From the NCBI GenBank assembly GCA_902578845.1, contig CACHEM010000004.1:8636-72635 (forward strand): 64,000 bases of DNA, read 5' to 3'. A model generated the notes under the pieces. The model was not told the origin of the DNA. It saw nothing but the letters and a program-made list of their open reading frames with translations, and made no database searches. Below are positions 61,103-63,950 of this stretch, piece after piece; the first letter of the stretch is position 1, and each line of letters opens with the position of its first letter. The position numbers and the translations under genes are program-made. The DNA is from an uncultured Prochlorococcus sp. (lineage in GTDB: Bacteria > Cyanobacteriota > Cyanobacteriia > PCC-6307 > Cyanobiaceae).

Positions 61103-61933
61103 ATGAGTTTAGAAATATATTGGAAAAAAGCACTGGAACAAACTCGATTATCAATTGATGATGAATCATTATATCCTCTCAAAACTGATATTATCACTAG
61201 AGATTTATATGAAAAAGACGACTTCATAATTAGGAAACTCGATACTTCAAAATTTAATAAAAAAAAAATTTATGGTCCTAAGCAAAATCCATTTTGTCCT
61301 TGGGAAAAGATACTAGAAATTGACAAAATTGGTGATAATCATCAACTAATATTAAATAAGTACCCTGTACAAAAAGGTCATATTTTACTTATTACAAATG
61401 AATGGAAACCTCAAAATGGATGGTTAGATATTAAAGATTGGAGAGCGATCCAACAAGTAAATAAAGATACTAGTGGATTATGGTTTTTCAATAGTTCTCC
61501 AATTGCAGGAGCAAGTCAACCTCACAGGCATTTTCAACTTCTGCGTAGATCCAAAGGTGAGATATCATGCCCTAGAGAAAAGTGGTTTTTAGAGATGAAC
61601 TCATATCAAGATCTAGATAGTAAGCTTAAAAAAAATATTGTTGTATCCAAATTTAATTTTTTAGAAAATCCATCATGTCTTTTTGAGTTTTACTTGGAAT
61701 TATGCAAGAAATTAGGACTTGGGGACCCTATTAGTGATAATAAACCGATATATCCTTACAATATTTTAATAACTAATAAATGGATCGCTATTGTAAAAAG
61801 AAAAAATGATCATATCCATGGTTTCAGTATTAACGGTTTAGGATTTGCAGGATATCTATTAGTAACTGAAAATTCAAATATTAATTATTTAAAGAAATTT
61901 GGCCCTGAAAAACTTCTAGAAAGTTTTGTTTGA
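61103..61933 (+). CDS. HIT-superfamily ATP adenylyltransferase (Ap4A phosphorylase-like)
   Basis: A 276-residue GalT/HIT-fold protein resembling Ap4A phosphorylase, which splits diadenosine tetraphosphate to ADP and ATP. The catalytic triad motif is QPHRHFQLL (His141, His143, Gln145). LNKYPVQKGHILLIT near 85-99 and the preceding NPFCPWEK match the N-terminal half of the family, while the C-terminal 120 residues (YPYNILITNKWIAIVKRK) match the Apa1/2 extension. The physiological substrate is inferred only. It follows the DUF2237 gene after 48 bases. Confidence 0.86.
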   Translation: MSLEIYWKKALEQTRLSIDDESLYPLKTDIITRDLYEKDDFIIRKLDTSKFNKKKIYGPKQNPFCPWEKILEIDKIGDNHQLILNKYPVQKGHILLITNEWKPQNGWLDIKDWRAIQQVNKDTSGLWFFNSSPIAGASQPHRHFQLLRRSKGEISCPREKWFLEMNSYQDLDSKLKKNIVVSKFNFLENPSCLFEFYLELCKKLGLGDPISDNKPIYPYNILITNKWIAIVKRKNDHIHGFSINGLGFAGYLLVTENSNINYLKKFGPEKLLESFV

Positions 61934-62259: not shown

Positions 62260-63270
62260 TTGAATATTCCTGAAAATTCAAATACAAAAAGAATTTCAAT
62301 TGATTTACCTGAGGAACTAATTTCCAGGTTTGATCAATTACGAAAAGAGTGGGGATTTAGAGCAAGAGGTCCTGTAATAGAAAAGATACTTAAAGAACTT
62401 CTTCAAGAAGATGATTTACTACCTAAGAACCAACAGCAAGAAATAAATTTTAACGAGAATAATAATAAAGAAAATTTAAATATTGATGAAGATACTGCAT
62501 TGGTATTAATTAAATCAGACTTAAAAAAAGAAGTTAAAGAGATATCTTTGAATAAAAGATTTACAAATAACAATCAATATAAAGAAAAAGCCAACTTAAA
62601 CATAAGCCTTCCCAATTTTGTTGAAAAAAAAGTAAAGAATCTAAGAAGAAGTATTAATAGTGAAAAATTAAAGGAGAATATTAATGATATTCAATTTAAT
62701 ACAATTAAAGAAACTGAATTAATAAAATGTCGAATTGAGTTAATTAGTCATTGGAAAACCCTATATGGATCAGTTCCTAATGATCATGTAGTAGAAGCTT
62801 CGATGGATTGGTTTGAAAGGGATATATGGCCAAATCTTGATGGAACTGAAAATCTACCCTTTACGTGGAGTGCAGCCAATAAATTAATGTCAGAATTATG
62901 CCCATTTTGGATAAAGAAAAATCCATCCCTTGAAATTGTTTTATTAATGATTGGAGTTTTAGAAGACCCTTTTGCTACATCAGACCTGATAAATAGAATA
63001 CCAACACTTATGAGAAGGTTTGTAAGTAGATTTAAGCGAAATAATAGATCAAATTCATTTGAAACTTTGGACTCAACAATGACAGTACATGGAGCACTTA
63101 AATTATTGAATTTATCAACATCTGCAGGATCCGCTCATACCTTCCGTAAAATTAGGGAGGCCTATAAATCAATAGCCTTAGAGACGCATCCAGATGCTGG
63201 AGGATCAACAGATCAAATGAGAAAATTAAATGAAGCGTATCAATTGCTAAAAAATCTATATAGAAATTAG
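62260..63270 (+). CDS. Ribbon-helix-helix / J-domain fusion protein
   Basis: A 336-residue protein with a TTG start. Residues about 8-50 look like a ribbon-helix-helix DNA-binding domain: a beta strand KRISIDLPEELISRFDQL followed by two helices. A charged, N/K-rich linker covers about 50-155. A conserved-looking middle with several tryptophans (HWKTLYGS, MDWFERDIWPNLDG, CPFWIKKN) covers about 160-255. The C-terminus is a J domain (about 275-336) with the HPD motif at 310-312 (HPDAGG). I know no characterised protein with this combination. The function is unknown; a DnaK-dependent DNA-binding protein is a reasonable idea. A weak stem covers the start codon. Confidence 0.78.
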   Translation: MNIPENSNTKRISIDLPEELISRFDQLRKEWGFRARGPVIEKILKELLQEDDLLPKNQQQEINFNENNNKENLNIDEDTALVLIKSDLKKEVKEISLNKRFTNNNQYKEKANLNISLPNFVEKKVKNLRRSINSEKLKENINDIQFNTIKETELIKCRIELISHWKTLYGSVPNDHVVEASMDWFERDIWPNLDGTENLPFTWSAANKLMSELCPFWIKKNPSLEIVLLMIGVLEDPFATSDLINRIPTLMRRFVSRFKRNNRSNSFETLDSTMTVHGALKLLNLSTSAGSAHTFRKIREAYKSIALETHPDAGGSTDQMRKLNEAYQLLKNLYRN

Positions 63271-63359
63271 TATATTAATTCTCAAATAAGACTAAATTTA
63301 AGTCTAATAAATAGTCCTATATAAGATAGCCACTAACTCTTAAATCTCAAATTCACATC

Positions 63360-63392: not shown

Positions 63393-63462
63393 AAGCATAA
63401 ATGAAATTAAAATAAAATATACTTTTCAATGATAAAAAATTCCTTGTATATTAAATCTTATA

Positions 63463-63495
63463 TGAGACTTATTATAAGTCTATTATATGGTCTCA
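63463..63495. repeat. Nested alternative hairpins (AGACTTA/TAAGTCT inside TGAGAC/GTCTCA)
   Basis: AGACTTA (63465-63471) pairs with TAAGTCT (63475-63481) around a TTA loop. TGAGAC (63463-63468) can instead pair with GTCTCA (63490-63495). The two use the same AGAC bases, so they are mutually exclusive structures, and the second is followed directly by a run of six A. Such competing stems are typical of structured RNAs but also arise by chance in AT-rich DNA. Confidence 0.45.
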
Positions 63496-63689
63496 AAAAA
63501 GATATATAAGACAATTTAATTTATCAATATGGATGATTCATACTCAAACTGATTATTGCCTGGGAAAAATTAAAAATTGAATAATAAATCAACAAATCAT
63601 GTCCTTTCAATGTCCAAGAAATTTATAAAGTCATAGAAGTCTTGCTAATAAAGGCTTTTATATTTTCACGTACTGCCTTAAAGACAGTA

Positions 63690-63950
63690 CTACTTAGATT
63701 GAAGCTTTTCAATGGCAGTTTGTTTATCAATACTAGGGACATCACTTAATCCGTTAGCATCAAACCAAGGAGCGCTAGCCCAATCAAATCCTTCGCCAAA
63801 GGTATTATCTGGTGCAGTTATATACCAGTGGCAAGATGCATCTGGTATGTCAACAGCACATTTTGACCAATCATCTGACCACTGAGGAACTTGTACCCAC
63901 AGCACTGAAGATAGAAGTAGAGATAGCAGATTAATCATGAACTTTATCAT
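63690..63950 (-). CDS. Small secreted protein with two cysteines, unknown function
   Basis: An 86-residue protein with an ATG start and a short hydrophobic signal-like segment at about 5-19. The mature part is acidic and aromatic-rich, with six tryptophans overall, two cysteines at 31 and 40 (KCAVDIPDASCHW) that could form a disulfide, and a helical lysine-containing tail. I do not recognise the family. The gene stands alone after the 419-base noncoding stretch; a weak hairpin GTACTG/CAGTAC borders its stop. A second ATG at 63938 is an alternative start. Confidence 0.68.
   Translation of the reverse strand: MIKFMINLLSLLLSSVLWVQVPQWSDDWSKCAVDIPDASCHWYITAPDNTFGEGFDWASAPWFDANGLSDVPSIDKQTAIEKLQSK

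Follow-up and report, generated by a model that had tools for sequence, protein, structure and literature searches.

The question raised by this locus is what a picocyanobacterial protein that joins a DNA-binding fold to a domain expected to recruit the chaperone DnaK might be doing, and on which DNA. The open reading frame (ORF) concerned occupies 62260..63270 of a 64,000-nucleotide stretch from an uncultured Prochlorococcus sp. (the whole stretch is called the window), and its product, named T here, is read as a ribbon-helix-helix (RHH) domain, a middle domain and a C-terminal J domain. A reading made from the sequence alone had proposed this fusion, had suggested a DNA-bound factor served by DnaK, and had offered protein-folding stress acting on transcription, or plasmid-like partition, as possible roles. 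It is established here that the fusion exists and is conserved, that arrays of short boxes follow the gene, that these arrays are concentrated at the T locus, and that the locus is at the replication terminus. The RHH and J layout, its conservation and its HPD motif suggest that T is probably a DNA-bound co-chaperone of DnaK, much as the sequence-only reading had supposed.

The assignment of residues 9-53 to the RHH fold passes on both sequence profile and fold, in agreement with the earlier proposal, and among solved structures the best match, by fold and by sequence, is NikR. The nickel-binding C-terminal domain of NikR has no match in T, and the NCBIfam NikR models reach 13-20 bits on T against cut-offs of 83 to 175. 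In an alignment of 78 T members, to which all residue counts out of 78 refer, the strand residues R11 (74/78) and S/T/N13 and D/E15 (74/78) are conserved, as are R34, R36 and G37 of the loop; RHH proteins that read DNA conserve comparable strand and loop residues. The J domain, likewise anticipated with its HPD motif intact, scores above the Pfam cut-off in T and is found in all 78 members at E<=1. No DnaJ_C domain or zinc finger is detected in T at E<=10 (Pfam), the J domain forming the C-terminal end of the protein, and T is classed here as a J-domain protein carrying an RHH domain. Between the two ends lie conserved linker motifs and a middle domain for which comparison with the PDB gave no convincing match. 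One linker motif, I.LP.F at 62602-62622, invariant in 78/78 members, is a candidate short binding motif. The TTG start codon is kept in 129/129 same-genus 5' ends. No description of such an RHH and J-domain arrangement was found in the literature searched, in keeping with the earlier remark that no characterised protein of this layout was known.

Protein-level matches to T at E<=0.001 were obtained in 266 of 300 genomes of the window's family and in 185 of the 197 of good quality, the 266 including genomes that match the J or RHH part alone (in 25 of them the best E is above 1e-40). With the middle domain alone as query (386 genomes), 57 genomes of the family matched at E 1.2e-40 or better, every one of these 57 matches sitting in an ORF of the length of the whole RHH-middle-J protein (333-377 aa); other families contributed 16 genomes, with E no better than 0.014; the genomes missed by that search include G278, of the same family, and at least 293 others. 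In a class-wide search with a 24-row alignment (388 genomes), the full-length matches among those listed were confined to the picocyanobacterial family, and the matches listed from other families covered the J domain only. The survey, with all 57 of those middle-domain matches in ORFs of full length, bears out the conservation of the fusion across picocyanobacteria. Taking the better of two queries, stand-alone RHH proteins in the same family are 39-59% identical to the fused RHH domain; coiled-coil-like J proteins, also of this family, have a J domain 46-48% identical to that of one T member; these two kinds of protein may be the sources of the parts of T. Small stand-alone RHH proteins with a similar EWGLRSRG-type loop are seen in the family's genomes at L208-L213.

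The DNA just 3' of T carries a near-palindromic repeat unit, AGWCT, every 11-12 bp. The first array starts 18 bases past the T stop, and the 64-kb window has two copies of the palindrome AGACTN7AGTCT where 0.05 would be expected, both of them 3' of T. The window holds two arrays and same-genus loci about three, clustering at about +18, +195 and +735 bases past the T stop, the third of which would fall just past the window's end. When 116 distinct same-genus 3' regions are aligned the boxes are more conserved than the spacers, the consensus being AGACT-N7-AGTCT-N7-RGTCY, after which an AGAT is also conserved. Past array 2, on its 3' side, lies a second conserved footprint (63599-63615) in which ATGTCC repeats with an 11-bp period. 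In 20 loci taken over the family, exact box pairs are spaced by 12 bp (32 pairs), 24 bp (10), 11 bp (8), 23 bp (6) and 20 bp (5), with single pairs at 15, 16, 17 and 29 bp. In a set of 78 distinct 3' regions, a good many of which come from closely related genomes, 260 exact adjacent box pairs are present, and 69 of the 78 have one or more; 200 letter shuffles gave 0.5 pairs on average and never more than 2. Inverted (128), direct (104) and everted (28) pairs all occur among the 260, and a near-palindromic box used in any orientation would fit a symmetric dimer such as an RHH protein.

Within the locus the arrays favour the 3' side of the gene. When each locus is scored for its best three boxes, the 900 bp past T come out ahead of all other parts of the locus in 19 of 20 cases and level with them in the remaining one, and in 20/20 no comparable array lies 5' of T, the 1.5 kb up to the T stop scoring lower than the 900 bp after it. 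Boxes drift to AGWCC in GC-rich genomes (consensus then AGWCY), and with a score that allows AGWCC, 7 of 9 GC-rich loci have their best array 3' of T and no equal to it elsewhere in the locus. This position, between convergent ORFs and with nothing comparable upstream, gives no support to the specific link to stress transcription that the sequence-only reading had raised. Whole-genome totals of arrays are unremarkable, and the unusual feature is their placing: in 49 genomes that carry T, 44 of the 50 exact triple arrays (RGWCTN7AGWCTN7RGWCY) lie within 2 kb 3' of T, spread over 28 genomes.

On the chromosome, the T locus is at the replication terminus. The gene dnaN was located in 28 single-contig genomes, of which 20 have T and a usable length, and in 18 of these 20 T sits no more than 5% of the circle away from the point opposite dnaN (median 0.478); the 18 cases are not independent, because the genomes are related and share gene order. 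In G177, where T is at 863.7 kb, the skews at codon position 3, corrected for gene strand, have their best change-points at 810 kb for GC3 and at 850 kb for TA3. The remaining two genomes, G131 (T at 0.332) and G263 (T at 0.385), have T away from the point opposite dnaN, and in them the terminus seems to shift along with T, although the skew is noisy and resolves positions only to within tens to about a hundred kilobases. Both skews of G131 cross zero between 0.307 and 0.323 of the circle and are mostly negative afterwards, the TA3 change-point being best at 0.32 with 0.20 nearly equal, and the GC3 change-point of G263 is best at 0.41 and next at 0.38, that of TA3 being best and flat from 0.17 to 0.29.

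In genome G016, which by its length is putatively strain MED4, T lies at 829,627-830,625 and an exact palindrome AGACTN7AGTCT at 828,872. A published reanalysis of MED4 vesicle DNA gives a ter window of 6 kb (826,000-832,000 of NC_005072.1) with 92,377 of 1,368,548 and 186,179 of 2,729,515 reads; it gives random 6-kb windows a median of 0 reads and means of 3,050 and 16,381, and it says that the highest peak sits at the dif site (PMC10913375). Other vesicle-DNA peaks exist, as those random-window means imply. If G016 is indeed MED4, then T and the palindrome fall inside the published ter window, and with gene and boxes inside the window of the peak the origin of the enrichment becomes testable.

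The explanation that we favour, with confidence a little short of even, has T bound to the arrays as a dimer and drawing DnaK to the terminus; the binding, the recruitment of DnaK and the client are what we infer. RHH dimers of T would bind the near-palindromic AGWCT boxes (AGWCY in GC-rich genomes) and, with boxes every 11-12 bp in about three arrays, would line up in a short row at the chromosome's terminus. Through its C-terminal J domain T would call DnaK to the terminus and trigger the ATPase of DnaK; late in the cell cycle DnaK would remodel some protein that is bound at the terminus or brought there, and the middle helical domain would pick the client or partner. A stronger form of this proposal, in which the RHH-J protein coats AGWCY arrays at the terminus, recruits DnaK and so constitutes a locus-specific Hsp70 remodeller at the end of replication, is offered as a tentative suggestion, and the literature searched gave no description of a terminus nucleoprotein complex of this type; the task of such a remodeller could be the clearing of terminus-bound or divisome proteins. 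To our knowledge, anchoring a J protein at a single place on the chromosome would put Hsp70 to a new use. If G016 is MED4, this locus would also be the hot spot for DNA that leaves Prochlorococcus in vesicles. Prochlorococcus and Synechococcus rank among the most abundant photosynthetic organisms, and for their poorly understood terminus the present work provides a concrete element, a candidate protein and a testable link to DnaK.

Several observations weigh against the explanation favoured above. T is dispensable, because it has decayed in G278, a near-complete genome of the same genus in which a remnant lies between apa2 and pheT (L220 2626-3065), and because the apa2-pheT interval of G085 and of G324 has no copy of T. 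Counted over whole genomes, AGACTN7AGTCT occurs 0-4 times per genome as compared with 1-10 times for the backward pattern (27 genomes), and the exact triple, on one strand of genomes with T, 0-3 times as compared with 0-6 for its control (60 genomes); in 21 of the 49 genomes mentioned above no exact triple array is found near T. Two of the four genomes of the T-less genus g32, G068 and G123, have an exact triple array beside mnmE, G068 having a second array 177 bp from the first, a spacing much like that of arrays 1 and 2 near T. No homologue of the RHH domain of T is present in the four g32 genomes at E<=0.01, and the arrays there therefore have another user or are relics. The skews of G131 dip below zero already at 0.22 of the circle and its GC3 change-point is best at 0.50, with 0.32-0.35 lower, and in G263 single stretches show mixed skew on both sides. 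The adjacency of T and the arrays may also be inherited synteny. As to the history of T, a PheT tree joins g32 to G109, as sister to five GC-rich Synechococcus types, and loss of T is not distinguishable from late gain because the tree is without a root.

The leading alternative, less likely in our judgement than the explanation favoured above, is that the arrays are the chromosome's dif/ter-type site for another factor, for example a tyrosine recombinase, divergent yet apparently conserved, with a length of about 390 aa; T would then be a terminus neighbour or an accessory protein and not the chief binder. The arrays of g32 occur without T, and AGACT-N7-AGTCT looks like an inverted core site. 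Matches to PF00589 are present in 23/23 genomes searched, over the cut-off in 21, and in 17 of the 23 one falls in an ORF of 388-428 aa (orthology putative), the T-less G068 (below the Pfam cut-off) and G123 among them. The same alternative gains from the statement of Kono 2011 that dif prediction failed in all five cyanobacteria tried (PMC3025954), and from the reported vesicle-DNA peak of MED4 at 'the dif site' (PMC10913375). What counts against it is that the arrays have at least three boxes, lie in about three places and mix direct, everted and inverted pairs, unlike a single two-arm 28-bp site, and that every PF00589 match in the genomes with T that were searched is more than 30 kb from T, the nearest being 32 kb away in G283. 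The only PF00589 match of G016 (G016:C1:495095-495520) is a candidate Xer, of putative orthology, with counterparts elsewhere.

Two further alternatives are less likely than such a dif/ter-type site. It is improbable that T is an ordinary RHH transcription factor controlled by DnaK through its J domain, with operators elsewhere and with terminus arrays that have nothing to do with it: RHH proteins are mostly repressors, and the match to NikR and the stand-alone RHH relatives agree with that idea, but none of the 20 loci has a comparable array before T and the concentration of arrays at the T locus (44/50) would have to be coincidence. Least probable of all is that the RHH fold, since such folds dimerise, serves just to pair up a general class C co-chaperone with DNA not involved, given that the strand and loop residues are conserved as in RHH proteins that read DNA and that the gene adjoins periodic boxes.

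The features of the window, together with the arrays of g32, are collected in the table below. In 21 loci across the family, the window included, the clusters of apa2 and pheT are each found in 19 and that of rpsR in 18; a sigma-factor cluster (10) and a DUF3370 cluster (11) occur before T, and rlmD (14) after it. The six other clustered ORFs of at least 200 aa in the 14-kb locus L056 are MetRS-like, RNB, PheT, Ap4A phosphorylase, MetH and aminotransferase IV, as identified by Pfam in L056 or in the same cluster at other loci, and there is no partition motor or linked NTPase filament gene among them. The plasmid-like partition raised by the sequence-only reading was a shrewd guess, given that arrays of boxes adjoin T at the replication terminus. 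The 86-aa ORF that adjoins the arrays has, by eye, an apparent signal peptide. Three arrays scoring 14-15/15 remain beside the decayed T of G278. The apa2-pheT intervals of the T-less G085 and G324 contain no array scoring at least 13/15; in G324, which is also without rlmD, the approximately 12 kb from apa2 to pheT (L225 1428-13925) holds three ORFs of at least 120 aa and may be a decaying stretch.

Table. Coordinates of T, its parts, its neighbours and the box arrays (window positions unless a locus is named).
Feature	Position	Strand	Basis or remark
Ap4A phosphorylase/ATP adenylyltransferase (apa2-like), upstream conserved neighbour	61103..61933	+	Pfam
T, RHH-middle-J protein, 336 aa, TTG start	62260..63270	+	
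RHH domain, residues 9-53	62284..62418	+	sequence profile and fold
Linker motif E..ALVLI, residues 77-84	62488..62511	+	A80 75/78, V82 76/78, L83 75/78
Linker motif I.LP.FV and helix, residues 115-133	62602..62658	+	I115, L117, P118, F120 78/78; helix 119-133
Five-helix middle domain, residues ~150-262	62707..63045	+	
J domain, residues 273-336	63076..63267	+	
HPD motif codons, residues 310-312	63187..63195	+	78/78 aligned members
Array 1, AGACT-N7-AGTCT-N7-AGTCC	63289..63317	.	in first copy of 59-nt repeat (63270-63328)
Array 2, AGACT-N7-AGTCT-N7-GGTCT	63465..63493	.	in second repeat copy (63446-63504)
86-aa ORF convergent with T, bounds array region	63690..63950	-	no Pfam match at 1e-5
AGWCT arrays 3' of mnmE, T-less g32	L283 4573-4790; L284 2120-2148		two arrays 177 bp apart in L283

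Parallels with known systems are instructive for the proposal that T carries DnaK to the terminus. T shares with class C J-domain proteins a J domain with HPD, and polyomavirus T antigens and CbpA likewise couple a J domain to DNA binding; T differs from all of these in the combination of a C-terminal J domain, an RHH domain as the DNA-binding part and a middle domain without a convincing PDB match, and it differs from class A and B DnaJ proteins, in which DnaJ_C or a zinc finger follows the J domain, in having neither. NikR offers the closest RHH domain of solved structure, coupled there to a nickel-binding domain that T does not match. The ParR/parC and omega systems of plasmid partition use an RHH adaptor and a linked, helically phased array of short boxes, as are found at T; they are plasmid systems with a motor, whereas T is at a chromosomal terminus and the L056 ORFs of at least 200 aa include no actin-like or ParA-like motor. 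With dif/Xer the T locus shares a terminus position near the skew switch and tyrosine recombinases in the genome, but dif is one two-arm inverted site and the T locus has multi-box arrays, with free box orientation, in about three places. MatP/matS of Escherichia coli likewise links an RHH protein with repeated DNA sites and with the terminus region (PMC12756933); MatP has a four-helix bundle before its RHH domain and a coiled coil after it, whereas in T the RHH domain begins at about residue 9 and the J domain comes last, and the sites of MatP are dispersed over the terminus domain, whereas the boxes of T, if they are its sites, form one cluster (44/50 within 2 kb). Myxococcus CdbA is an RHH chromosome-organising protein genetically linked to PilZ-DnaK chaperones (PMC10313047); those chaperones are proteins in their own right, with CdbS as the link, whereas in T the domain predicted to recruit DnaK is fused to the RHH domain itself.
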